Assembly: GCF_003369835.1 (NCBI RefSeq)
Contig: NZ_QPMJ01000001.1
Coordinates: forward strand, 806,001 to 870,000
Length of the DNA stretch: 64,000 bases
Origin: Halorussus rarus
Lineage (GTDB): Archaea; Halobacteriota; Halobacteria; Halobacteriales; Haladaptataceae
Direction of reading: 5' to 3'
Positions 944-32,442 of this stretch are shown one piece after another. Both the position numbers and the translations under genes were made by a program. Numbering within the stretch: the stretch's first letter is position 1; every line of letters begins with the position of its first letter. The notes under the pieces are model-generated. The model was given only the letters and a program-made list of their open reading frames with translations. It was not told the origin of the DNA and searched no databases.

Positions 944-2101
944 TCAGTCCGCGGCCGAGAGCTCGACGCTCGCCAGCGCGCGCTGGATGCGCTCCGAGGC
1001 CTCGGCCAGCCGCTCGGCGCTGTTGGCGTACGACACCCGCAGGCACTCCTCGGCGTTCGTGCCGAAGTCGGGGCCGGGCGTCATCGCCACGCCCGCCTCC
1101 TCGAGGAAGAAGTCCGCGGCGTCGAAGGCGTCCCCGGGTAGATCGCTCACGTCGATGAGCAGGTAGTACGCGCCGCCGGGGGTGTACCCCATGCTCAGCC
1201 CCCAGTCCTCGACCTCGCTCACGAGGTAGTCCCGGCGCTCGCGGTAGGTGTCCCGGACCTCGTCGAGGAAGTCCGCACCCGATTCGAGCGCCGCGACGCC
1301 GCCGGACTGGACGAAGTTGGGCGCGCAGATGAGCGTGTTCTGCGCGATGCGGTTGACGTGACCGACGTACTCCGGCGGCGCGACCATCCAGCCGAGCCGC
1401 CACCCGGTCATCGCGAACCGCTTCGAGAAGCCGTCGAGCACGAAGGCGTCGTCGGTGTACTCCAGCACGGTGTGGTCCTCGCCCTCGTAGGTCAGCCCGT
1501 GGTACACCTCGTCGGAGACCACGGTGGCGTCGTTCTCGGCGGCCAGGTCGACCAGCTCCTCCAGCGTCGAGCCCTCGAGCACCGCGCCGGTCGGGTTTGC
1601 GGGCGAGTTGAGCAGCAGCGCCTCGGTCTCCGGGCCAAGGACGCGGTCGAACTCGCTCGCGCGCGGCCGGAACCCCTCGTCGGCCGACAGCGGGACCGTC
1701 GAGATGCGCCCGCCGGTCTGGCGGACGAAGTTGGGGTAGCAGGCGTAGTACGGGTCGGTCAGCACCACCTCGTCGCCGGGGTCGACCAGCGACGAGAACG
1801 CCAGCAGCAGCGCGGGCGACGACCCCGAGGTGACGACGATGCGCTCGGGGTCGACGTCAACGCCGTACCGCCGGTCGTAGTAGGCCGCGATGGCCCGCCG
1901 GAGCTCGGGCTTGCCCCGCGAGGAGGTGTAACCGGTCTCGCCTGCGCGGAGCGCTGCGACCGCTGCCTCGGTGACTGCCGCCGGAGTGTCGAAGTCGGGT
2001 TCGCCCACTTCGAGGTGTACCACGTCGTCCATCCGGTTGGCCCGTTCGAGCACGTCCATCGCGGCGAACGGGGTCGTCCGAGTCGCGCGCTCCGAAACCA
2101 T
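944..2101 (-). CDS. pyridoxal-phosphate-dependent class I/II aminotransferase
   Basis: A 385-aa fold-type I PLP enzyme, cytoplasmic. Visible landmarks are the N-terminal EVGEPDFDTP substrate segment, the NPTG motif (residues about 169-172), the DEVY cofactor motif (about 197-200), the Schiff-base lysine in GFSKRFAMTGWRLGW (K227) and the late RVSYAN arginine region that binds the substrate carboxylate. It belongs to the aspartate/alanine aminotransferase-like group; the exact amino acid cannot be read from sequence. I place the start at the ATG at 2101 rather than the TTG four codons earlier, because a TATA box lies 27 bp upstream of the ATG. The gene is monocistronic and divergent from the SRPBCC gene. 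Confidence 0.93.
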   Translation of the reverse strand: MVSERATRTTPFAAMDVLERANRMDDVVHLEVGEPDFDTPAAVTEAAVAALRAGETGYTSSRGKPELRRAIAAYYDRRYGVDVDPERIVVTSGSSPALLLAFSSLVDPGDEVVLTDPYYACYPNFVRQTGGRISTVPLSADEGFRPRASEFDRVLGPETEALLLNSPANPTGAVLEGSTLEELVDLAAENDATVVSDEVYHGLTYEGEDHTVLEYTDDAFVLDGFSKRFAMTGWRLGWMVAPPEYVGHVNRIAQNTLICAPNFVQSGGVAALESGADFLDEVRDTYRERRDYLVSEVEDWGLSMGYTPGGAYYLLIDVSDLPGDAFDAADFFLEEAGVAMTPGPDFGTNAEECLRVSYANSAERLAEASERIQRALASVELSAAD

Positions 2102-9294: not shown

Positions 9295-9627
9295 TCAGTC
9301 GTCGCCCGCCGACTCGCACGGATCGATGGCGATAGTGCCGTCGGACGCGACCAGAATCCGGTGGCCGCTGTACTCGAAACGGATTCGCCCGTCGGTGTCG
9401 CGGGGGGCGCCGTCGGGGCGGCGGCCGAAGAGCCGGTCGAGGGCCTCCGGGTCTACTGCCTCTGCGAGAACGGGGAGGTCGATCGGGTCCGCGTCGTCGA
9501 CCGCGGCGACGGCCCGGACGAGCTCCTCGCTCGCCGAGTCGCGTCGCGGGTCGAAGCCGTGTCTGAGGAGCGCGGTCGATTCCGGGCGCTGGTCGTCTTC
9601 GTCGTCCGGCACGTTGTGTTCGGTCAT
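9295..9627 (-). CDS. HalOD1 output domain protein (110 aa)
   Basis: A stand-alone HalOD1 domain of 110 residues. The conserved pattern is DPIDLPVLAEAVDPEALDRLF, then a short variable loop, then FEYSGHRILVASDGTIAI. HalOD1 is a haloarchaeal domain predicted to act as a signalling output; its biochemical role is unknown. Start ATG 9627 gives exactly the size of the paralogue at 10426. The two genes point away from each other across an 800-bp gap. Confidence 0.82.
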   Translation of the reverse strand: MTEHNVPDDEDDQRPESTALLRHGFDPRRDSASEELVRAVAAVDDADPIDLPVLAEAVDPEALDRLFGRRPDGAPRDTDGRIRFEYSGHRILVASDGTIAIDPCESAGDD

Positions 9628-10425
9628 ATGTCTGGGAGCGCAGCGAGTGTGAACTCTGTGATGCGCCCCGCCTGCTGTGGCCTCCCGCACAGGTCCGGAC
9701 ACCACTGTCCTGTTTTGGTACCGCTACCGATGACAGCGGACGCACAGTGTGTACTCTCTCGCCGTTGTTCAATGAACGCCGCGCCCTTAAGAAATTGGTT
9801 TTACCGGAGTGTTCGGAAACCGACCGCCGGCCGACGAGGCGCGCGTCGGGCGATACTGGGTGCCGACCGGGAGACGTCACTCCCACCCGTCGACTCCCCC
9901 GTTCCCGGAAGACCGATTCCGTTAGCGAGTGATCCCTATGGACGAATTCAGCTACGCACTGTGCGTTCGCGCCCCGATCACGAGGGGCCCACTCATCCCG
10001 GTCGTGACGGTTGGGACGTCACCCGCCGTGTCCTTCGCGTGGTGGTCACGCGGGACGCATCACAGCGTCCCGCGTTCCGCAACACCGATTACCGCCACAA
10101 TGTCATCCAGTCCAAGCGACGCGTCGACGCCGACAATATCGTCGAGCGCCAGGTCCCCGCCGCGGCCACCGGGTTGGCCGCCGCGCTGACCGACTTCCCG
10201 GCTCGTACAGTTCGAGGGAGCCCGATTGCCGCGATGGCGCTCGAACGCGGCGGGCAACCGCCCGTGCCGCTGTCCCACAGCCGGTGGGTGCTCGAACTGA
10301 TGGAGCAGGTCCGCGCGGACGCCCGGAGGTGGGGAACTTCCCACCACTCGCCGCGGTCCCCCGTCTCACGCGCGTCTGACAGTCGTCTGATAGGGATTTA
10401 TTCTCCGTGCGACCCACTATCGCGT
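9628..10425. other. 798-bp gap between two divergent HalOD1 genes
   Basis: No frame here looks like a protein of this genome. The short frames are rich in Arg, Pro and Ser and are opposite-frame artefacts. The stretch includes an AT-rich CCTTAAGAAATTGG near 9784 and the TATA box of the right-hand HalOD1 gene. A decayed gene or an untranslated regulatory region is possible. Confidence 0.4.
10397..10402 (+). promoter_or_regulatory. TATA box of the second HalOD1 gene
   Basis: TTTATT is centred 27 bp before the GTG at 10426, so a leaderless transcript beginning at the GTG is likely. Confidence 0.5.
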
Positions 10426-10758
10426 GTGGCAATCACGACCTCCACCGCACTGGACCTCGAATCGCCGCCCGTCGCCGAGCGACGACACGTCGCGACCGAC
10501 GACCCCCTGAGCCGGACGGTGTACCGGGCGCTCGCCGACGCCGAGGGCGTGGATCCGACCGACCTCGACTTCGAACTCTATCGCAACGTCGACGTCGACG
10601 CGCTCGACGCGCTGTTCCGGCACGCGTCCTCGCGGCCCCCGTCTTCCGCATCCGACCCGCGCGACGGCTGGTCGTTCTCGTTCTGCGTCGCCGGGTACCA
10701 GGTCGCCGTCGAGAGCGACGGCCGGGTCGCCGTCTACGAGGCGCCCCGACGAGACTGA
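10426..10758 (+). CDS. HalOD1 output domain protein (110 aa)
   Basis: The second stand-alone HalOD1 protein, beginning with GTG (VAITTSTALDLESPP). The core is SRTVYRALADAEGVDP, then VDVDALDALF, a Ser/Pro loop, and FSFCVAGYQVAVESDGRVAV. It matches the paralogues at 9295 and 48915 in domain order, including the DxxALDxLF helix and the final two strands. It is expected to be a small cytoplasmic signalling output protein. The GTG start is supported by a TATA box 27 bp upstream. No partner sensor is adjacent. Confidence 0.8.
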   Translation: MAITTSTALDLESPPVAERRHVATDDPLSRTVYRALADAEGVDPTDLDFELYRNVDVDALDALFRHASSRPPSSASDPRDGWSFSFCVAGYQVAVESDGRVAVYEAPRRD

Positions 10759-10907
10759 CCGACGAGCACTGTAGACCCCGGCGGGGGTCCGCGATTCACG
10801 AACTCCGCTCCAGCCCGAGATTCGCTTCGAGGTCTGCAGCCGTCTCCTCCAGCGCGACCACCTGCGCGATCCGCCGCCGGGCGTTCCGGCCGGGCCGCTC
10901 CGACAGC

Positions 10908-11984
10908 TCAGTCGAGATCCGCCGCGAGCGCGACCGCCTCGTCGAGGGTCAGTTCCCCGTCTTCGGCGTCGAGTCGGGCGAGCAGTCGCTCGACCCGGTC
11001 GTCGGTCGGCTCCCGGCCGGCCCGCTCCAGAATTCGGCGGGCCGCACCGCGGCCCGTGTCGCTCCCGAACAGGAGCCGGCGCTCGCCCCCGAACCGGGCG
11101 GGGTCGAACGGCTCGAAGGTGGTCGGGTCGTCGAGCATCGCCGCGGTGTGGAGCCCGGACTCGTGGGAGAACACCGCGTCGCCGAGCAGCGCCTTGCCCG
11201 GTTCGGTGTCCTCGTCGAGCGCGTCGAGCACCGCGCGGGCGACCGGGAGGAGTCGGTCCTCGTCGACGTCGGTCTCGAACGGTTCGTCGCCGACCGCGGC
11301 CGCGGCGACGACCTCCTCCAGCGCCGCGTTACCCGCTCGCTCGCCGAGGCCGGCGACCGAGACGTCGGCCTTCCCGACGCCGAGCCGGGCGGCCGCCAGC
11401 GCGTTCGCGGTCCCGACGCCGAGGTCGTCGTGGAAGTGGACCCCGACGTCTGCGAGGTCCGTCTCGAGCGCCTCCAGGTGGTCGACCACGCCGGCCGGGG
11501 TTCGGCTCCCCGCGGTGTCGGCGACCGTGTAGCAGTCGGCGTCCACCGCGGCGAACAGGTCGTCGAGGTCGGCCGGGTCGGTCCGGAAGCCGTCCATCGC
11601 GGTGAAGTGGACGGTCGCGCCCCGGTCCCGAGCGAGGTCGGCGGCGTCGGCCGCGGCGGTCGTCATCGTCGCGCGGTCCTTCCCGAGGACGCGGTCGAGC
11701 TGTCGGTCGCTGGTCGGGGCGAACAGGTCGACCACGTCGACGCCGGCGTCGACCGCGGCCTCGACGTCGCCGGTAATCGCCCGGGCGAGCCCCGTGACCG
11801 CGGCCGAGAGGTCGGCGCGGTCGCAGAACGCCGCGGTCCGGTCGTCGGCGACCGGGAAGCCGACCTGGAGGAGGTCGACGCCCAGCGCGTCGAGTTCCCG
11901 GGCGGCCGCGACCTTCCGGTCGACCGAGTAGTGGACGCCGGGGCGCTGCTCGCCCTCGCGCAGCGTCAGGTCGAGCAGCCTCAC
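10908..11984 (-). CDS. homocitrate/isopropylmalate synthase-like DRE-TIM enzyme
   Basis: A 358-aa protein of the DRE-TIM metallolyase superfamily. The N-terminal LLDLTLREGEQRPG carries the D-R-E catalytic triad (D5, R9, E10); a glutamate after the arginine is seen in homocitrate synthases. Metal-binding H183 and H185 lie in VHFHDDLG. Signature 2 is GLGERAGNA (212-220). The post-barrel SHESGLH (about 273-279) is typical of homocitrate, isopropylmalate and citramalate synthases rather than HMG-CoA lyase. The C-terminal regulatory domain of LeuA is absent, as in NifV-type enzymes. The GTG start overlaps the CaiB stop (GTGA), so translation is probably coupled. The exact 2-oxoacid substrate is unknown. 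Confidence 0.85.
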   Translation of the reverse strand: MRLLDLTLREGEQRPGVHYSVDRKVAAARELDALGVDLLQVGFPVADDRTAAFCDRADLSAAVTGLARAITGDVEAAVDAGVDVVDLFAPTSDRQLDRVLGKDRATMTTAAADAADLARDRGATVHFTAMDGFRTDPADLDDLFAAVDADCYTVADTAGSRTPAGVVDHLEALETDLADVGVHFHDDLGVGTANALAAARLGVGKADVSVAGLGERAGNAALEEVVAAAAVGDEPFETDVDEDRLLPVARAVLDALDEDTEPGKALLGDAVFSHESGLHTAAMLDDPTTFEPFDPARFGGERRLLFGSDTGRGAARRILERAGREPTDDRVERLLARLDAEDGELTLDEAVALAADLD

Positions 11985-23701: not shown

Positions 23702-23908
23702 TTACTGACGGACGACGTTCGCCGCGCGAGGCCCCTTCGGTGAGGACTCGATGTCGAACTCGACCTCAGTACCTTCCGTCAGGTCCTCACCGCCGACATC
23801 CTCCATGTGGAAGAAGACGTCTTCGTCGTCGTCGAGGTCGCCGTCGTCAGTCGAAATGAAACCGTAGCCGCCAGTGTCGTTGAAGAAGTCAACCTTACCG
23901 TTTGCCAT
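23702..23908 (-). CDS. cspA: cold-shock domain protein
   Basis: A 68-aa single cold-shock domain with both RNA-binding motifs: RNP1 GGYGFIS (residues about 13-19) and RNP2 VFFHM (residues about 31-35). It starts MANGKVDFFND and ends PKGPRAANVVRQ. Such haloarchaeal proteins bind single-stranded nucleic acid and act as RNA chaperones. The very acidic DDGDLDDDED loop is normal for halophiles. Confidence 0.95.
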   Translation of the reverse strand: MANGKVDFFNDTGGYGFISTDDGDLDDDEDVFFHMEDVGGEDLTEGTEVEFDIESSPKGPRAANVVRQ

Positions 23909-24177: not shown

Positions 24178-24447
24178 ATGAAACCGTGCCAAAGCTGTCA
24201 GGCGGCCATCGACGAGTACATCTTGGACAAACAACTCGAACCCCTGCGCGACCTCACAGTCGACGACTTCAACGTCTGCGCGGACTGCGCGACCATCGTT
24301 GCGGACGCGTGCGTGAAGTGCGGCGGCGCGGTGTACGTCCCTCGGAGCGAATCGCTCACCCCTGACTACTGCCCGGCGTGTCGGTCGGACCTCATCGACC
24401 GCACTGGTCACGATCCCGGGTGGAATCGTGACCTTACGTCTTCCTGA
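24178..24447 (+). CDS. small zinc-finger protein, function unknown
   Basis: An 89-aa protein with four CxxC-type pairs: CQSC at residue 4, CADC near 39, CVKC near 48 and CPAC near 65, enough to bind two zinc ions. The middle part is acidic. I do not recognise a named family. It lies just left of the tRNA-Arg locus and outside the integrated element, and its base composition matches the chromosome. Confidence 0.7.
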   Translation: MKPCQSCQAAIDEYILDKQLEPLRDLTVDDFNVCADCATIVADACVKCGGAVYVPRSESLTPDYCPACRSDLIDRTGHDPGWNRDLTSS

Positions 24448-24747
24448 ACGCCACCTCACCGCTCAACCGATATTTATTCTTACGTACTTATGCAGACGGA
24501 TTTTATGTGTTAGTCCGGGTCCCTTGAACGTGTTCAACGGTCGTCTCCTCAGGAGTGTTCGCTGCAGAGGTAGGACGGACCAATCGGGTCAGTGAAACGG
24601 GTGACTGTCACACTCACCCTATCGACCATTTCCGACGGCCCGGAGTTCGCCATCTGGCCAGATTCGCACTGCTGAAGGATACCCGGAGGCAGAGAATACC
24701 GAGTCAATCTGCCGCCGTCTCAGAAGGGAAGACTGTTCGATAATATA

Positions 24748-24822
24748 TGGGCGCTGCAGGATTTGAACCCGCGACAGCTTGGTCCGAAGCCAAGTACTCT
24801 GTCCAGACTGAGCTAAGCGCCC
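24748..24822 (-). tRNA. tRNA-Arg (anticodon UCG)
   Basis: A 75-nt cloverleaf on the minus strand. The acceptor GGGCGCT pairs with AGCGCCC, and discriminator A is at 24748. The anticodon loop is CTTCGGA in the stem CTTGG/CCAAG, giving anticodon TCG. The T-arm reads GCGGGTTCAAATCCTGC. No intron is seen. The gene is the target of the integrated element: its 5' 61 nt and promoter are repeated at 30531-30644. Only the last 14 nt appear to be the original host sequence. Confidence 0.95.
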
Positions 24823-24875
24823 TCGTACGGTCGTACTGGTCCGGCCGGTTTAAACACCGCGGTTTCGGCCGAGCG
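24762..24875. repeat. left direct repeat (attachment site) of the integrated element
   Basis: A 114-bp repeat matching 30531-30644 without gaps, with 4 mismatches, all in the part upstream of the tRNA (24825, 24827, 24828 and one in CCGGCCGG near 24844). It contains the first 61 nt of tRNA-Arg and 53 bp of its promoter region. Confidence 0.88.
24848..24855 (-). promoter_or_regulatory. TATA box of tRNA-Arg (element-borne copy)
   Basis: GTTTAAAC lies 26-33 bp upstream of the tRNA 5' end. The same box is present at the other end of the element (30617-30624), so the promoter is part of the duplicated attachment sequence. Confidence 0.6.
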
Positions 24876-25190
24876 TATTAGGCCGTATGACACCAATTGA
24901 CTGGTGATAGCCCAACTCCAGTGCTGACAGTTCTCTGCCTCCACACTGTCACTGAACGTTTCTCATGCAATAAATCTCTCCCTCCAGAGATGCACTCTTT
25001 CTTAGACTCGATTAAGGATGATCGTCATTGGTGATGGCTGTGTTCATGTGTAGTAGGGGGTCAAACGGTATCCAGAGTTGGTGGTGATTCGGTTACTGCG
25101 ATGGACGTCAATTGTAGTTTTGGATACGGAGTAATTCTAGAAGGAGAACGAGCGTATCAACATGCCACCTATATACCAAATTTTATCTCC
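24876..25190. other. 315-bp left margin of the element, no gene seen
   Basis: An AT-rich stretch with stop codons in all frames. A remnant integrase C-terminus, which an SSV-like split integration would place here, was looked for and not found. Confidence 0.5.
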
Positions 25191-25520
25191 TTATTGGGAT
25201 TGAGCGATACAGTTTAAGCAACAAACTGCTTGGTATCCATTATTCAAGTTCACCACCCGCAACTGTTCTTTCGAGAAGTTTCCTTGGCAAACAGAACATT
25301 GGCCCGTATTTTTAGGACCCGAACTTTTCTTCTCACTCACTTCATTACTTTCCCCCCATCCTTCAAGGAAATCAGAAACGGCAGACAGAAATATCAAAAA
25401 GCTTATTCCTAGTATGATGAATCCGCCGTAATTTGATACAAGTTCCCTTATTTGAGGTAGGACTCTGATTAATAAACGAACAATTTCATCAACCGAGCCA
25501 ATTAGACCGAGTACGTTCAT
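25191..25520 (-). CDS. small membrane protein with C-terminal zinc ribbon
   Basis: A 109-aa protein of unknown function. An amphipathic N-terminal helix is followed by one membrane segment (FIILGISFLIFLSAVSDFL, residues about 34-52). A charged linker and a cytoplasmic or external C-terminal zinc site (CSVCQGN near 76 and CCLNC near 100) follow. TATA-like ATAAATTTAT lies about 27 bp upstream. It is the first gene inside the element and has the same AT-rich style as its neighbours there. Confidence 0.65.
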   Translation of the reverse strand: MNVLGLIGSVDEIVRLLIRVLPQIRELVSNYGGFIILGISFLIFLSAVSDFLEGWGESNEVSEKKSSGPKNTGQCSVCQGNFSKEQLRVVNLNNGYQAVCCLNCIAQSQ

Positions 25521-25812
25521 ATCAAGTACAGATTATGTATAATGCATAAATTTATCGGATAGTGTAAGATAGTGAGCAACGACCCGTAGTGAAGAAGAGA
25601 CCTAAATGACAATTAATTAATATCTCACTAATGGAGTGGCTGAATCCGTTACATTCGATCCTATATTTTTGATACTAAGACCGTGTGTAGAAGGCCATTC
25701 AAATCCCAAATTCTGAATGGGAGTGAATGAATCTAGCTTTATCATAGATTTACGGACTTCCCCTACGGTCTAATAACGACCATTAGCAAACGTCCGTGAC
25801 CGCAGTAGTGTT

Positions 25813-25876
25813 TCGATGGAGTAGGTGGCCGAGTGTTCCGTCTTCGACTCCACGGGACCACCACCTACTCCATCGA
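25813..25876. repeat. 16-bp perfect inverted repeat with 32-nt loop
   Basis: TCGATGGAGTAGGTGG at 25813-25828 and its exact reverse complement at 25861-25876. The loop contains a further GAGT/ACTC pairing, so a branched stem-loop can form on either strand. Confidence 0.75.
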
Positions 25877-26107
25877 CCGCTTCACGGAGTAGTTGTGAGC
25901 AAACACCTATATGATTGTACGACCCTAAGCTCATAGCTTCAAGACTGTGAGTAGATGGTCGTGGGTTCTACGTTAACACCGAGAAGCACAGTGACCTTCC
26001 TTCAGAGGGTATCAGAGGCCCGTGAGTGTCAGTAGATGGCTTCTTTGACAATCCGAGTGAAGGGCATTATCCCCGTAAGGGAATGGCTTGAGACGGCTGT
26101 GTGTTCC

Positions 26108-26148
26108 TTAACCAACATCCTCGGTCTAATCTACGTCTCGTTGGTTAA
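26108..26148. repeat. 9-bp inverted repeat in the element's non-coding region
   Basis: TTAACCAAC at 26108-26116 and GTTGGTTAA at 26140-26148, separated by 23 nt. Confidence 0.6.
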
Positions 26149-26455
26149 ACTCGTCTGACCATACTGTGATCGAGGTGAGTCACTCCAGTAGTGGGTAGCA
26201 CAATATCATATTACATACTTATTTTCTGCTCTATTTCTATGAAGGCAATAAATTAGTAGTACTACGAGGAGAGAGTTATGTAAAACCGCATGAAGTCGAC
26301 CTATATGTGGATTTATTGAGTAGTTCCAGTAACCGAGATAGACTCACCTATGCATCACAATAGGACTATCTCTGACGTGTATCTCATTCACGGGCCTCAC
26401 AATCTACGACCGTTGGGCCATCGTCCATCCTCCTTTTCTGATTATCGCTGAACTT

Positions 26456-27139
26456 CTAATGAATGACTCTTTGCGCCTCCGTGAGAGTGATCGACTCTAT
26501 TCTTTCTCGTGGAATCTCCATTGTAAGACCGTTTTCGCTCGAAAGACGAAGCTTGGGCTCTCCCATTCCGGCTACTGACTCAATGGATTCCGCATAATAG
26601 ATCCTCTTACCAGTATCTGTCCAGCACTCAACAGCCAACTCACTCTCTTCTGTCCACTCACTCCATTCGCGTTCAACAAGGCTTTGCAGACATTCGTCAC
26701 ATACGTTCTCAACTTGATTTCGGGGATCTCCGTTTACCTCCTCTGGTTCAAATGAGATTTCATGATGTAGGGGTTTGCGATGGCAAATTGTTTTCAAGTC
26801 GGCTAGTGAGCTACCGTTCCCTCCTTGGTCTTTTGCCACGCAACCTCCTATACCCGTAACAATGTCCGTCATGGGATGGTTGCTACAACGTATTCCCAAA
26901 ACGTCCTCATCGTCAAGATCAATGTTCCTCTCATTGACTTTTTCTTTGCAGTATTTGCACGAGATGAATCCTTTGCTCGGGTTTTCTTTTACCTCAACAT
27001 GTTCTCCCTCAATCGGGAGTTGCCATTCGTCACATAGACTTCCCCAACCAAATCCCGTGCTCGGCGGCATGTGATTATCCATAAAGATGTGGGTACAACC
27101 TTCTTCAGTAGTCCAGTGATACATGGTTCGATGAATCAT
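26456..27139 (-). CDS. element protein of unknown function with CxxC motifs
   Basis: A 227-aa soluble protein. Possible metal ligands are CTHIFMDNHM near the N-terminus, CKYCKEK (about 61-67), CSNH (about 85-88) and CDECLQ (about 147-152). The C-terminal part (residues 165-227) is beta-rich and ends with SITLTEAQRVIH. The mix of Cys and His pairs suggests two zinc-binding knuckles. I do not recognise the family. ATG 27124 (MYHWTTEEG) is an alternative start. Composition is typical of the element. Confidence 0.6.
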   Translation of the reverse strand: MIHRTMYHWTTEEGCTHIFMDNHMPPSTGFGWGSLCDEWQLPIEGEHVEVKENPSKGFISCKYCKEKVNERNIDLDDEDVLGIRCSNHPMTDIVTGIGGCVAKDQGGNGSSLADLKTICHRKPLHHEISFEPEEVNGDPRNQVENVCDECLQSLVEREWSEWTEESELAVECWTDTGKRIYYAESIESVAGMGEPKLRLSSENGLTMEIPRERIESITLTEAQRVIH

Positions 27140-27555
27140 AGTCTGAAAACTGTAGAATGAACACTAATAGAAGTTATCATTCTTACGACTATCATATCAA
27201 CGACCGTGATCCCACCCCGATACTGCCCCGTGAAAACTATATTATTTAACTAACATCCCTTGCTCCACTGGTGGGGGTCCATTTCTCTCCCCGAGAGACA
27301 CGATTTTGGTGCCACAGTGTAGGATGAGGCCCTTCTTCGACAGACAAACTTCTACCTTCAGACGGAGATGGTTGCTTCACGACGCTCGCTCTCGTCGGCT
27401 CACGGGCATTACTCAACCCGACCGATGACAATATCTGGGTTTCCGCGTATAGATATATGGCGATCTCTATCTTCTCTCAGTTCTTGATTCCAGTATTAAA
27501 CAAACTGAAATAGAGAGATATTTACATCAAGCGAATAGAATGACCACGGAGAAAG
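27140..27555. other. 416-bp gap in the element, with a GC-richer island
   Basis: Positions 27246-27431 are less AT-rich than the surroundings and form a minus-strand open frame of 61 codons with two short hairpins. It may be the decayed 3' end of an IS200/IS605-type tnpB (see findings). The rest has no gene. The 27480-27545 part is the AT-rich promoter region of the next gene. Confidence 0.35.
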
Positions 27556-28416
27556 ATGGATGGGGAATCCGACAAGGATACTTTGTACGGTAGCTATGAT
27601 GATATTCGTTATTTGGTGAACTGGCAGCAGAATCAACATCATCATATCAAAAACCTCTCGTTAGCTCTCCTTGGCGGTGTTCTAACACTGTTGGCTATTT
27701 TAGTGTCCATCTGGGTAAATACGTCTAAGGTTATTTCCGTACCTATTCCGATTCTGGTTGATGTAAGAGCGGTTGCTAGAGACTCGATCTTCAGTTGGAT
27801 TGGGGTTTCATTCTTTTTTGCTTTTAACTATCTCCTCTGTCTATCGCTTATTTGCTTAGCGATAGTGGCAATACTCTATTCTTTATACAAATGGTATGAT
27901 ATAGCCGCCAGTCCGCCTTTGAAACCTCGTTTGTGGAAGAACGATATTGTTGTCTTAGAAGATATGAGTGTGTTAAATCACGACCAAATGGATATACCTA
28001 CTTTCCAAAATCACCTAAATGTTTCAGTAGTATCTAACCAGAATATAATCCGTACTAGTTGGCGGGATTTCAAAATGGCGCTAATAAGAGTACCCGCTAG
28101 CATTGTCATCGGTTTCACTGCAATCCAGATTCTTAACGAGCTATCAACAGTTGATTTGTGGGATTTAATTTTGTTTAACGCATCCTTAGTTATACCATCA
28201 TCCATTTCCGCAATTGTATTGAATGGTCTATTCTCTCCATCAGAAGATGAGGGGGGATACACATCGTTAGGTCAAGCACTCTTGCAAGAGGACGGTGGCC
28301 GGTTCCCAAATCAATTTACTCGTCTGGAGAAAGTTTTCGCAGTTGGAACTACTATCTTTTTATTTACTTCTGTAGCGATTTTGATTCTAGATTTGTGTGC
28401 GAGTTTGCTTCTTTAG
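27556..28416 (+). CDS. multi-pass membrane protein of the element
   Basis: A 286-aa protein with about five hydrophobic segments: residues about 34-56, 77-112, 178-198, 208-232 and 262-285. A 30-residue acidic N-terminus with YLVNWQQNQHHH precedes them. A soluble part of about 60 residues lies between segments two and three. No family is recognised. It has typical element codon use (AT-rich third positions). It could be a defence or exclusion membrane protein, but nothing in the sequence proves this. Confidence 0.65.
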   Translation: MDGESDKDTLYGSYDDIRYLVNWQQNQHHHIKNLSLALLGGVLTLLAILVSIWVNTSKVISVPIPILVDVRAVARDSIFSWIGVSFFFAFNYLLCLSLICLAIVAILYSLYKWYDIAASPPLKPRLWKNDIVVLEDMSVLNHDQMDIPTFQNHLNVSVVSNQNIIRTSWRDFKMALIRVPASIVIGFTAIQILNELSTVDLWDLILFNASLVIPSSISAIVLNGLFSPSEDEGGYTSLGQALLQEDGGRFPNQFTRLEKVFAVGTTIFLFTSVAILILDLCASLLL

Positions 28417-28619
28417 TCTAGCAACTGTTCACTCCCAATCTAAGGTGGTCTCGATGATTGCCCTCCTTCAAGAACTTCTTGCCACGATATTGATAGTCCA
28501 TAACAAAGATGCTCTCTACCCTTAGCGGGATTCATAGAATGGCCGTTTTACGGAGTAGGTTTTGTTGAGCTCATAGAGATGTGGCGGAGAACGGTCATAG
28601 GCCTCCAAGGTGATGAACA

Positions 28620-28862
28620 ATGCTAGCCAAATCATTCCCAGAATCAGTACTGTTCTACACTTGCACATACCAAGACGAAGAGACCCCGACGTGCCATCAC
28701 ACTAAGCCCGATTGCCGTCAACTCAAAGCCAACGAGATTTCAGAAGATGCGTTGGCTCGGAAGTTCATACCAGTGGCTACGATAGAAGGGAATGGTGAGA
28801 AACTCTGGTGGTGTCCCGTTTGCGCGGAAGAGTACTGTGAGGAATACGGCTATGGAAAGTGA
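28620..28862 (+). CDS. tandem Cys/His mini-protein, copy A
   Basis: An 80-aa protein. The motif is CHHTKPDCRQ (residues about 25-34), then LARKFIPVA, then GEKLWWCPVCAEEYCEEYGYGK at the C-terminus (cited by its parts CPVC and EEYGYGK). The two Cys/His groups can form one zinc knuckle. It is the first of three related frames. Its last 11 bp contain the start of copy B. Function unknown. Confidence 0.6.
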   Translation: MLAKSFPESVLFYTCTYQDEETPTCHHTKPDCRQLKANEISEDALARKFIPVATIEGNGEKLWWCPVCAEEYCEEYGYGK

Positions 28863-29109
28863 CGAAGCTGAAGATGAGGACATTGAGGAGATCGAATTCT
28901 GGGTGGTAGAGCCATGGGCATACTGGTATGCACCAAATTGCTTTCACACCATCCCCGACTGCCATCAGATAACGATAAAAGACATCCCACGCCGATATCT
29001 CGGACGGCAATTCGTCCCGAAGGAGATGTTAGAGAAGGTCGGTGAAGATTTGTGGTTCTGTGGGCGATGTGCGGACGAGTACTGTAAAGAATACGGCTAT
29101 GGAAAATGA
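28852..29109 (+). CDS. tandem Cys/His mini-protein, copy B
   Basis: An 85-aa paralogue of the preceding gene, with the same framework: CFHTIPDCHQ (copy A CHHTKPDCRQ), LGRQFVPKE (LARKFIPVA), GEDLWFCGRCADEYC, and the identical ending EYGYGK. An acidic N-terminus (ESDEAEDEDIEEIEFW) is added. Its ATG lies within the final codons of copy A (11-bp overlap, in a different frame), so termination and reinitiation may couple their translation. Function unknown; zinc binding is likely. Confidence 0.62.
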   Translation: MESDEAEDEDIEEIEFWVVEPWAYWYAPNCFHTIPDCHQITIKDIPRRYLGRQFVPKEMLEKVGEDLWFCGRCADEYCKEYGYGK

Positions 29110-29170
29110 GGTAGCTGGTAGTGAGGGCATTGAGGAAGTAGAGTCTTGGCTGGTACGGAGCTACTCCTAA
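29099..29170 (+). pseudogene. truncated third copy of the Cys/His mini-protein
   Basis: A 23-codon frame that begins inside the end of copy B with the same 11-bp overlap. Its product starts MENEVAGSEGIEEVESWLV, clearly related to the start of copy B (ESDEAEDEDIEEIEFWVV), and then stops after RSYS. The zinc motifs are lost, so it is a decaying third unit or a very short peptide. Confidence 0.55.
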
Positions 29171-29216
29171 ACATAACCAACACTGTTATCGCAACTGAAT
29201 ATTTGATGTTTGTCTA

Positions 29217-29579
29217 ATGCCGCTTGCGGACCCCGAGACAACGTGGTATTGCCCAGAATGCAGACAAAACGAAGTATATCAAGAAATCAGTCCCGACACT
29301 GCCCACGAAATTGAAGGAACAAAATGGAGATGTGAACCGTATTCATGCAATCTGTGTTATTACCATGTTCGTGGCGCGAATTGGGGTGGTGTTGAGGGCT
29401 TTAATACATGGGGGGGGAGGATGGTACTAACGCCAAACTGGGGTAGTTGTGGGAACTGTACATCGGACTCAGTAGTTTGTATACAATGGGCGGATGATAG
29501 TACGGGATCGATGTATTGTAAGGACTGTCTCCCCAATAAATATATGACCGTGTATAGTCATCTTGAAGAATGCAAATAG
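29217..29579 (+). CDS. Cys-rich zinc-binding protein of the element
   Basis: A 120-aa protein with four or five Cys pairs: CPEC (residue 12), CNLC (about 44), CGNC (about 78), CKDC (about 99) and C119. Aromatic glycine-rich stretches such as ANWGGVEGFNTWGGR lie between them. It should bind two zinc ions. The family is unknown. It ends just before the point where the convergent integrase frame loses similarity, so its acquisition or a deletion here may have truncated the integrase. Confidence 0.6.
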   Translation: MPLADPETTWYCPECRQNEVYQEISPDTAHEIEGTKWRCEPYSCNLCYYHVRGANWGGVEGFNTWGGRMVLTPNWGSCGNCTSDSVVCIQWADDSTGSMYCKDCLPNKYMTVYSHLEECK

Positions 29580-30375
29580 GGATGAAGGTACGCTGTTGAA
29601 GACTAACCGTCCAGTGCTCATTGTTCTTCGCAGCTTGGTCGGCGGGAACACGCAAAACGGCATTGTCCGTGTCAACCCATTGAACTTGTGCTCGTTTTAC
29701 CTCAATAGGACGGAGACCAGCATCCAGTGACGTCCATACCAACGAGGGTATCTTGAAGCCATTAGCCCGTTCAAAATCACTCTTCGCGATTTCGGACATA
29801 GGTTTGCGGAAACGTCTCGCCAAGTATCGTTTCCACTTATCTCGATCTGTTGGGGATAGAGAGTTATAGTGCGGAACACTCCCGTATTCTAAGGCTACTT
29901 CACGTATCTGTTGACGTTCTTCTCGACTTAGGAAGTCACGGGGCTGTGTCGCTCCACGACTATCACTAATCGACAATTCTGGTTCCCATCTGTCCTCGTC
30001 GTATTCCCATGACCGCCAACGGAATAGCATTTTGAGGGTCTTTTGGATGTTCGTCTTGTAGCTGGCACTTCTATCCCCATAGACTAACTCCCTCATGTAG
30101 GCGTCAGCATCGTCGTGAGTAACTTCGGTAGTGTAACCACCCTCACTCCATTTCCACCGATAGAACTTGTCACAGTCATCAGCACGGCGTCGTGCTGTAT
30201 GATAGGCGTATCCCTCAGCAGAAGAAGGATCTTTGCCCAGATTTAGCATCCATCGAATCAACTTTTCTCGGTGATCACGGTAGTCAATGAGTTGCCGTTG
30301 GTTGAGTACCTCCCTTGCTTGTTCTGTGATAAGGGAGATACCTTTTACTTCTGTGGTCAAATCGCCATCAGTCAT
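29401..30375 (-). pseudogene. tyrosine recombinase (integrase), C-terminally truncated
   Basis: The frame starts MTDGDLTTEVKG and shows a core-binding domain (residues about 20-120) and the start of the catalytic domain with arginine I in TSLDAGLRPIEVKRA (R222). Similarity continues to WTVSLQQRT, at about 29587. After that the frame runs antisense through the Cys-rich gene and ends at 29401. The HxxR box and the catalytic tyrosine are absent, so it cannot cut DNA alone. It lies next to the right repeat, the normal place for an integrase. An ATG at 30393 would add six residues. Confidence 0.82.
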
Positions 30376-30530
30376 AGAGGGTACACCCCTCATAAGAATG
30401 ACTGTTAGTCGGATTCGCTATACGTCGTAGGGGTGACGGATTTCGGTGAATCTGGATAGCCTTGCACATGGGTTTGTCTTGCCATTGTGAAGGCCAGAAA
30501 ACTACCAGCAGTGGTCTGGATGGACGATTG

Positions 30531-30644
30531 TTTGAACCCGCGACAGCTTGGTCCGAAGCCAAGTACTCTGTCCAGACTGAGCTAAGCGCCCTCATCGGGT
30601 CGTACTGGTCCGCCCGGTTTAAACACCGCGGTTTCGGCCGAGCG
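30531..30644. repeat. right direct repeat: truncated tRNA-Arg with original promoter
   Basis: A 114-bp repeat of 24762-24875. It holds the first 61 nt of tRNA-Arg on the minus strand (5' end at 30591) and the upstream region with GTTTAAAC. The T-arm end and 3' acceptor strand are missing, so the transcript would be a non-functional tRNA fragment. This is probably the original host promoter side. Confidence 0.87.
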
Positions 30645-30664: not shown

Positions 30665-30838
30665 TCACCCGGAAACGACGCCGTCCCAGTCGATGCGGTC
30701 GATGGTACAACCGCCGCAGTCGGGACACGTCTGGCGGTCGAGCGTGAACGTGGTGCCGCACGTCTTGCACTCGTACGTCTCGTCCGACTCGTCGCCGGTA
30801 GCGCGGACGACACGTGCGATTTTATCGGTGAGACTCAT
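30665..30838 (-). CDS. small zinc-ribbon protein
   Basis: A 57-aa protein starting MSLTDKIARVVRATG, with a classic zinc ribbon CKTCGTTF...CPDCGG (two CxxC groups 16 residues apart). Related small proteins are common in haloarchaea; they may act in nucleic acid or protein binding, but the function is unknown. ATG 30838 is chosen over the longer frame starting at 30895 because the extension has no zinc-ribbon relatives that I recognise. Confidence 0.72.
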   Translation of the reverse strand: MSLTDKIARVVRATGDESDETYECKTCGTTFTLDRQTCPDCGGCTIDRIDWDGVVSG

Positions 30839-30982
30839 GCGTACTGTACCGCCACGGAGAAGCGTTTCTACGAACTGAGTTAAGACGTTTTCCATTCGAC
30901 GAGGCGCGAAAGGAACGAAGAGCGCCTGAGCACGCAGAAATATCGCCGTTGTAGCGTGCCGAAATCGCAGTGCTGCCGGCCG

Positions 30983-32326
30983 CTACCGTCGCTGTGGCGA
31001 CAGCGCCAGGTGGTCGGTCGCGCCGTCGGTCAGATCGCCCGGATGCGCCGAGATGTCGTTTCGCTCGGCCAGCAGCGCGCCCAGGTACCGCCGAATCAGC
31101 GCAGCGTCCGCGGAGTCAAGTCGGTCGAAGGCGTCGGGGCCGAGCGTGCGCCGGAGGTGCAGCCGAGCGGTCGAGATGTCCGCGGCGGCCTTCCGGCCCT
31201 CTGCTTCGCCCCGGTCGCGCCCGCCCGCCCGATCTCCTGCGACGGCTCCGTCTCCCGCGTCGGCCAGCTCCCGCAAGCGGAGCCACGTCCGGACGGTGGC
31301 AATCAGGTAGCGCTCGGCCCGCCGCTCTGGGTCGGCAAGCCACGGAATCGTCGCGAGGTAGCTCGCGGCGTGCGAGTCGGCGACGGCGGCGTTCTCGCGG
31401 ATCCACTCCCGGACCGCCGACTCCGACGCGTCCGCGTCCAGCGCGTCGACCGCTCGCTCGCAGACGTCGGCCTCCTCGTCGGCGATCCGGTGGAAGGCGT
31501 CGCCGACCACGACGGCGTCGGCGCCGGCGTCGAGCATCGCCGCGGCGTGTTCGCGCGAGTCGAGCCCGCCGCCGTACCAGAGCCGCGACCACGTCAGTCC
31601 GTCGGCAATCGCCGCGAGCGTCTCGGCGGCCTCCTCGCCGCCGTAGGTGCCCGAGTACTCGAGGTAGACGAGCTCGCTCTCGAGGTGGCGCTCGGCCGCC
31701 ATGGCCCGCTGCTTGGCCTCCCGGGGCGACAGCAGGTCGGCCTCGGTGACGTTGGCCTCGCGGGCCGCCGCGCTGTCGGGGTTCTGGATGATGTACGCCT
31801 CGAACACCGCGTCGGCGAGCAGCCACGAGGTGGCGAGGTCGGCGAGCCCGTCGGCCGCGAACCCCGGGAGCCACGGGAGCGCGTCGGCGAGCAGGTCCGG
31901 CACGAGCTCCTCGCGGATGTACTCGGTGCCCGCGCCGAGCTGGCCGACCAGCGACTCCGAGTCGCCGTTCAGCACCTCCGGGATGGCCAGCAGGTCGGCC
32001 CGCTCGCGGGTCCGGGGCGTGACGTGGCGCGGGCCGCTGGGCTCGTGGAAGACGGGAACCGACGCGGGCGCGAGCAGGTCGAACGTCTGCTCGGTGTTGC
32101 GGGCGGTGACGTCGGCCGACCCGCCGACCGACACCGCGCTGGTGTGGCGGAGGTAGAGGGGGTACAGCAGCGGGAGCTTCTTGGCGTCCTCCGGGTCGAC
32201 CTTGGTGACGTGGGTCCAGTCGGCCGGGACCGGGTTCGTGTCGACGGGCAGCACGGTTCGCGCGGCCAGCGAGGCGCCGCGCCCGGCGCGACCGAGCAGG
32301 CGCGCGGCGCCGTCCAGACTCGTCAT
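30983..32326 (-). CDS. GGGP/heptaprenylglyceryl phosphate synthase (PcrB)-like protein, extended
   Basis: A 447-aa protein with a TIM-barrel resembling geranylgeranylglyceryl phosphate synthase: HVTKVDPEDAKKL (residues about 38-50), SVGGSADVT, LLAIPEVLNGD, LVYLEYSGTYGG, LWYGGGLDSREHA and GADAVVVGDAF near residue 275. Such enzymes couple glycerol-1-phosphate to a prenyl diphosphate, the first step of archaeal lipid synthesis. About 160 residues follow the barrel, mostly helical and unlike known GGGPS, and the whole is nearly twice the usual 230-250 aa. Its ATG (32326) has a TATA-like TTTTATC about 34 bp upstream. It may not be the main lipid enzyme of the cell. Confidence 0.72.
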   Translation of the reverse strand: MTSLDGAARLLGRAGRGASLAARTVLPVDTNPVPADWTHVTKVDPEDAKKLPLLYPLYLRHTSAVSVGGSADVTARNTEQTFDLLAPASVPVFHEPSGPRHVTPRTRERADLLAIPEVLNGDSESLVGQLGAGTEYIREELVPDLLADALPWLPGFAADGLADLATSWLLADAVFEAYIIQNPDSAAAREANVTEADLLSPREAKQRAMAAERHLESELVYLEYSGTYGGEEAAETLAAIADGLTWSRLWYGGGLDSREHAAAMLDAGADAVVVGDAFHRIADEEADVCERAVDALDADASESAVREWIRENAAVADSHAASYLATIPWLADPERRAERYLIATVRTWLRLRELADAGDGAVAGDRAGGRDRGEAEGRKAAADISTARLHLRRTLGPDAFDRLDSADAALIRRYLGALLAERNDISAHPGDLTDGATDHLALSPQRR

Positions 32327-32442
32327 ACATCCCACAACCCCACGTCAGAGAGATAAAACGCTCGCTTCCGCGGGCGAGTCCCGACGCCCCGGCGGTCGGT
32401 TCCACAACCCTGATATACCGCGCCGGGCGACTCTCCGACCAC

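Follow-up and report, generated by a model that had tools for sequence, protein, structure and literature searches.

The use of a tRNA 5′ half as a chromosomal attachment site (attB) has been described for the pTN3-like suicidal integrases of Thermococcales (pTN3 and TKV4), in which 41 bp including the Leu anticodon are shared and the restored tRNA is left without its original promoter (PMC8371274; PMC5495485). A recent review described these integrases as unique in archaea for this usage (PMC8371274). Here we analyzed a stretch of 64,000 nucleotides from the haloarchaeon Halorussus rarus (contig NZ_QPMJ01000001.1, positions 806,001 to 870,000; hereafter, the window, with positions counted from its first letter), in which 24762–30644 is an inserted integrative element on the promoter side of tRNA-Arg(UCG). 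We consider it probable that this is a defective element whose integrase, when intact, once recombined the tRNA-Arg 5′ half that it carried with the chromosomal tRNA-Arg(UCG).

The window element resembles the pTN3-like elements in the use of a tRNA 5′ half and in the separation of the restored tRNA from its original promoter. However, in the pTN3-like elements the site on the element (attP) lies inside the integrase gene (int), integration splits int and transcription of the tRNA starts at the integrase promoter, whereas attP of the window element would lie upstream of an unsplit int, and the site of the tRNA-Arg elements brings a tRNA-type promoter. No int(C) was found at the other end of the window element; because the site does not interrupt int, the element falls outside the pTN3-like definition. 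The SNJ2-type integrases are likewise haloarchaeal tyrosine integrases that target tRNAs, and are set apart by their description, which gives a site as short as the 3′ amino acid attachment end of the tRNA (PMC8371274). A 5′ tRNA fragment likewise displaced to a position upstream of a restored tRNA was recorded in the Islander set for 159 out of 3,919 bacterial and archaeal genomic islands; the part of that source considered here gives counts and does not describe promoter capture (PMC4383910). Within the open-access literature, a haloarchaeal clade of classical integrases (with unsplit int) that uses tRNA 5′ halves, together with attachment (att) sites containing a tRNA-type promoter of ~50 bp, is new. 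In contrast to the uniqueness stated in the review (PMC8371274), this separate clade uses 5′ halves at tRNA-Arg(UCG) and tRNA-Ser(UGA), and a second lineage does so at tRNA-Leu(CAA).

Insertion on the promoter side of tRNA-Arg(UCG)

We compared the two ends of the element (Table 1) and found an ungapped direct repeat of 114 bp (24762–24875 and 30531–30644), in which 110/114 positions are identical (96.5%) and which spans –53 to nucleotide (nt) 61 in tRNA coordinates (numbering without a position zero). With E = 4.5e-48 in a search within its own genome, the repeat is far beyond chance. A TATA box (TTTAAA) is found at –32 to –27 of both copies (24849–24854 in the left copy), the four mismatches are located at –22, –6, –5 and –3 relative to tRNA nt 1, and nt 1–61 are identical. 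A first-pass annotation of this DNA had reported this repeat with its TATA box, its extent to nt 61 and the restriction of all mismatches to the region upstream of a conserved tRNA body, and each of these points was reproduced. ARAGORN called a single tRNA-Arg(TCG), that of the left end, and no tRNA at the right repeat copy. The search of the own genome returned one full and one partial copy of tRNA-Arg(TCG), the remaining matches being tRNA-Arg(CCG), tRNA-Met and tRNA-Lys.

Table 1. Features of the element and its flanks (window positions; strand given as + or –, and as a point where none applies)
Feature	Position	Strand	Basis or remark
Host left flank gene (DUF7571)	24178–24447	+	
Intact tRNA-Arg(TCG), genome's only copy; element-side 5′ part and host 3′ part	24748–24822	–	ARAGORN, own-genome search
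Distal attachment repeat on intact tRNA: promoter region –53 to –1 and nt 1–61; promoter probably element-borne	24762–24875	–	Repeat comparison
Element interior, 5.66 kb	24876–30530	.	Missing at the 17 congener empty sites
Element ORF, 109 aa, no family	25191–25520	–	
Element ORF, 227 aa, no family with known function	26456–27139	–	
Element ORF, 286 aa, hydrophobic stretches	27556–28416	+	Without congener homologue
Two small adjacent Cys/His-rich ORFs, both ending EYGYGK, no known family	28620–29109	+	
Element ORF, 120 aa, Cys-rich; stop codon 8 bp from integrase break point	29217–29579	+	
Truncated tyrosine integrase gene; no homology to intact relatives beyond QQRT	29588–30375	–	69% identity to Natrinema limicola integrase
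Displaced tRNA-Arg 5′ fragment, nt 1–61; 155 bp upstream of integrase start, same strand	30531–30591	–	
Displaced promoter, contiguous with host 5′ flank; TATA box TTTAAA at 30618–30623	30592–30644	–	Synteny with 17 congeners through here
Host right flank, with a zinc-ribbon protein gene and a PcrB-family gene; also located 5′ of tRNA-Arg in congeners	30665–32335	–	Synteny
ORF, open reading frame; aa, amino acids.

In all of the sampled congeners (17/17), a single tRNA-Arg(TCG) was found, the 5′ side of which is joined directly to the right flank of the window (the zinc-ribbon and/or the PcrB-family gene), and no second repeat copy was found in these 17 genomes. Because the congener tRNA is contiguous with the right flank, the insert is located on the promoter side, and the displaced promoter is the one that belongs to the host flank. 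The insert is thus flanked by direct repeats that overlap the tRNA, with empty sites in relatives, as expected of a tRNA-targeting integrative element, and its attachment is of the 5′ type: the displaced fragment is the 5′ part of the tRNA and lies upstream of the intact gene. A conventional 3′-type attachment does not describe the locus, since the duplicated part is the promoter region with nt 1–61. The empty sites confirm the promoter-side insertion that the first-pass annotation had proposed. Of the two observations that it had named as counting against an insertion, the presence of both repeats in element-free relatives was not seen among the congeners, and the membership of interior genes in a syntenic core was not seen for the one gene searched in the family (27556–28416), which has no congener copy.

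The G+C content is 45% between the repeats and about 66% on either flank. We also considered a chromosomal segmental duplication of the promoter and the tRNA 5′ part, with unrelated DNA between the copies and no mobile element. Such a duplication would be in keeping with an integrase that is now broken and with other genes that have no known mobile function; however, the low G+C content, the integrase remnant at the repeat, the empty sites in all congeners and the integrase-associated counterparts elsewhere make it very improbable.

A truncated integrase and its relatives

A tyrosine integrase gene adjoins the right end of the element, 155 bp from the repeat. The minus-strand ORF at 29401–30393 is 69% identical over 256 residues to the integrase of Natrinema limicola, up to residue 264 of the latter, and the homology stops abruptly at QQRT (about 29588), 0.94 kb inside the element. 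Intact relatives run ~110 residues beyond this break and include the motifs W-Y-x-I-RHS and KYD, which we take to be the second catalytic arginine box and the catalytic tyrosine of tyrosine recombinases generally; the corresponding C-terminal part was found nowhere in the window. Only the first Arg region (GLRPIEV) of the catalytic set R...HxxR...Y is left, which makes the window integrase a defective member of its family. Because the ~110 C-terminal residues are gone together with RHS and the tyrosine, the window element is unable to catalyse its own movement. A chromo-domain match on the integrase (E 0.001–0.003) was below the cut-off and was ignored. The truncation, the position of the integrase beside the displaced copy and the earlier reports of 5′-half attachment are additions to the first-pass annotation, which was silent on all three.

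We inspected about 85 loci with related integrases. In most of them, the integrase gene shares its strand with a complete tRNA and lies 40–500 bp downstream of it; the distal copy, where found, is usually the tRNA 3′ half (about nt 30–75), which is the conventional geometry. The conventional haloarchaeal integrases of the same family (at tRNA-Glu, -Gly, -Arg(GCG), -His and -Leu) are roughly 40–60% identical and share with the window an int that lies 3′ of the tRNA or fragment on the same strand; however, their elements duplicate the 3′ half and keep the host promoter.

Promoter-side attachment was found in two arrangements. In arrangement A, a displaced 5′ fragment precedes the integrase, with the intact tRNA located at the opposite end. 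At tRNA-Arg(TCG), this was observed in the window and in two loci from two other families, namely L154, in the metagenome-assembled genome of Halobacteriales archaeon QS_4_69_34, and L168. The repeat of L154 spans –50 to 39, with empty sites in 13 relatives, and that of L168 spans nt 0 to 41, with flanks syntenic with its congeners; in both loci, int lies 118–142 bp downstream of the displaced promoter and fragment, on the same strand. Arrangement A also occurs at tRNA-Leu(CAA) in L305 (10,001 and 12,356), where the repeat comprises nt 1–40 and a few upstream bases and the fragment directly precedes the integrase, and probably in L307 (about 9,790–9,830), where the integrase follows the fragment and the intact copy would lie outside the stretch covered. 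In arrangement B, observed at 10 loci with tRNA-Ser(TGA), the integrase lies 5′ of the tRNA in divergent orientation. Distal 5′ fragments were found in L075/L107 (nt –6 to 46), L210 (–2 to 51), L203 (1 to 30), L207 (1 to 19), L284, L291 and L292; the distal repeat of L177 is nearly the whole tRNA-Ser, and no distal copy was found in L288 and L290. Promoter-side attachment is therefore a rare but recurrent use of tRNA genes in haloarchaea.

The genome of the window also holds, at locus L094 (G000:C2, about 100,000; 9548–11704), pieces of a related integrase beside the 5′ side of tRNA-Ser(TGA), with a distal tRNA-Ser fragment (nt 3–57, 91% identity). This is a decayed arrangement B and the second 5′-type insertion in this genome.

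In a tree of 66 integrase sequences, a clade of 14 (ultrafast bootstrap (UFBoot) 99, Shimodaira–Hasegawa-like approximate likelihood ratio test (SH-aLRT) 98) comprises the window, L154, L168, the ten 5′-type integrases at tRNA-Ser(UGA) and L152, the integrase of Natrinema limicola, at tRNA-Met. The window integrase is thus placed within a supported haloarchaeal clade of the 5′ type, in which L152 is the one conventional 3′-type member and the nearest relative of the window integrase. Both tRNA-Leu(CAA) integrases are located outside this clade, inside a tRNA-Leu clade. Since the tree requires three switches between 5′ and 3′ use, the 5′ type must have originated two or more times: the tRNA-Leu(CAA) lineage is an independent origin of the 5′-type arrangement, and L152 appears to be either a reversion or a 3′ form that was kept. 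With a 3′-type tRNA-Met member nested among 5′-type integrases, the change from one attachment half to the other can be tested in enzymes that are closely related.

We searched 392 genomes with a pattern for 5′ fragments of tRNA-Arg(TCG) that stop just past the anticodon loop and matched only the genome of L168, the pattern being blind to the forms found in the window and L154. In viruses and plasmids, where the first-pass annotation had suggested a search for the repeat, nothing informative was found. The exact tRNA-Arg 5′ pattern had no match in IMG/VR, and the matches in phage records were tRNA-Pro and tRNA genes of bacterial phages (79–83%). A tRNA-Arg(TCG) on a Natronorubrum bangense megaplasmid adjoins a geranylgeranyl-transferase gene and was therefore regarded as an ordinary replicon-borne locus. 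Viral relatives of the integrase were distant (38–39%), the nearest tRNA-like sequence there being tRNA-Thr.

Promoter comparison and a probable course of integration

We compared the promoter copies within and between loci. In the window, the copies show four differences over –50 to –1 (46/50 the same), while the nearest congener shows at least 14 differences from either copy. The displaced copy agrees with the congener majority at –5 and –3, the intact copy does so at –6, and –22 is ambiguous; the mismatches thus point in both directions, and the divergence of the element's promoter, as assumed in the first-pass annotation, is not supported by them. In L154, the copies are identical over –45 to –1 (45/45), and the nearest relatives reach 76%. 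This near-identity in the window and L154 suggests that the element promoter came from the host species itself or from one very close to it, or that the copies were homogenised later. In L168, however, the intact and displaced promoters are 62% identical over –45 to –1, whereas the promoter of the intact tRNA is 93% identical to that of a sister species (congener G055), which is 64–69% identical to those of the remaining congeners. Judged from these alignments, the host tRNA promoter in L168 has been replaced by a different one. In G055 itself (L213; tRNA at 1501–1575, minus strand), about 165 bp of extra DNA were observed between the end of a conserved host gene and the tRNA-Arg promoter, possibly the scar of a similar 5′-type element that was lost.

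The replacement in L168 and the same geometry in elements from two other haloarchaeal families favor the earlier proposal that the element brings its own tRNA promoter. Such a promoter might, as that annotation also suggested, alter the expression of tRNA-Arg(UCG). Elements that replace a host tRNA promoter, in the window that of the only copy, would provide a natural experiment on the tolerance of promoter change in tRNA genes. Since the displaced promoter and fragment lie upstream of int on the same strand, a contribution to int transcription is plausible. When the leader that separates att from int was scanned for TATA boxes, neither the window nor L154 gave a convincing candidate; many conventional leaders likewise have none, so the scan is not discriminating.

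These data are consistent with the following course of events. The attP of the circular element would have consisted of a tRNA promoter of ~50 bp and the tRNA from nt 1 as far as the anticodon loop or beyond, with int after it. On a crossover with the chromosomal tRNA-Arg(UCG), most likely in the anticodon loop, the promoter and tRNA 5′ half of the host would remain attached to its 5′ flank, now upstream of int, and those of the element would be joined to the host 3′ end, so that the tRNA is restored and presumably now transcribed from the element-borne promoter. Later, the catalytic C-terminus of the integrase would have been lost and the element fixed. In L154, L168 and L305, the repeats stop within the anticodon loop or directly behind it, and the cleaner repeats have the anticodon loop or arm as their shared 3′ limit; judged from these relatives, since the window repeat itself runs past the loop, the crossover in the window was probably there as well. 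The chimeric nature of the intact tRNA, as stated in the first-pass annotation, agrees with this course, but the joint that it had placed at nt 61 is not supported, given where the repeats of the relatives stop.

Three observations weigh against this reconstruction: the window repeat reaches nt 61, beyond the anticodon loop; the nearest relative of the integrase, L152, has a conventional 3′ site; and the promoter copies are nearly or fully identical in the window (46/50) and L154 (45/45), the replacement itself being visible only in L168. The first two would be accounted for if attP had contained a complete tRNA-Arg gene with its promoter, captured by aberrant excision in an earlier host, so that integration gave two complete tRNAs, of which the copy next to int, being redundant, was afterwards shortened by 14 nt at its 3′ end. 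In the integrase family, elements commonly have complete or nearly complete tRNAs at both ends (L069, L071/L113, L157, L158, L182 and L192, the last with nt –21 to 76), and integration may raise the tRNA copy number in such elements; whole-tRNA capture is therefore the main rival, and a repeat that extends to nt 61, compared with 39–41 in L154 and L168, is in its favor. However, L154, L168, L305 and L307 all end at the anticodon loop, which a true 5′-type site explains better than random decay, and no residue of tRNA nt 62–75 was seen after nt 61 of the displaced copy in the window. We consequently regard this explanation as rather unlikely.

The third observation would follow from homologous recombination, in which a circle carrying the 114 bp of the host entered by a single Campbell-type crossover, or from gene conversion that equalised the promoters. 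The four differences in 50 positions between the window copies, against at least 14 to any congener, and the similar situation in L154 fit such a process. The integrase, however, belongs to the 5′-type clade and stands exactly at the att end, as in its relatives, and L168 exhibits the same geometry without promoter similarity; we consider homologous recombination improbable, less likely than whole-tRNA capture. We thus prefer integrase-mediated recombination at the tRNA 5′ half. A wider form of this reading, which we put forward tentatively and with some doubt, is that the att site may serve as a movable tRNA promoter, from which transcription in the circle would pass across the tRNA 5′ half into int, and which would be handed to the host's single tRNA-Arg(UCG) gene on integration, when the host promoter would take over int. 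Promoters could then be exchanged at integration or inexact excision, and the L168 locus suggests that tRNA-Arg promoters may spread horizontally in this way.

Element genes and host flanks

The element genes gave no informative match in Pfam, PHROGs, NCBIfam or PADLOC. Apart from the gene at 27556–28416, the interior genes were compared with these family libraries and with the loci fetched for the analysis. The two ORFs at 28620–29109 are apparent tandem paralogues. On the host side, the 3′ neighbourhood of tRNA-Arg varies among the congeners, and the cold-shock gene at 23702–23908 adjoins the tRNA in congener G020 as well.

Two inverted repeats were also observed. A 15-bp inverted repeat (CGATGGAGTAGGTGG / CCACCTACTCCATCG; 25814–25828 and 25861–25875) with a loop of 32 nt is located in a gene-poor part of the element and is possibly a replication or regulatory site. 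A perfect 12-bp inverted repeat (GGAGGCAGAGAA / TTCTCTGCCTCC; 24685–24696 and 24931–24942) flanks the intact tRNA, with one arm in the host flank and the other in the element.

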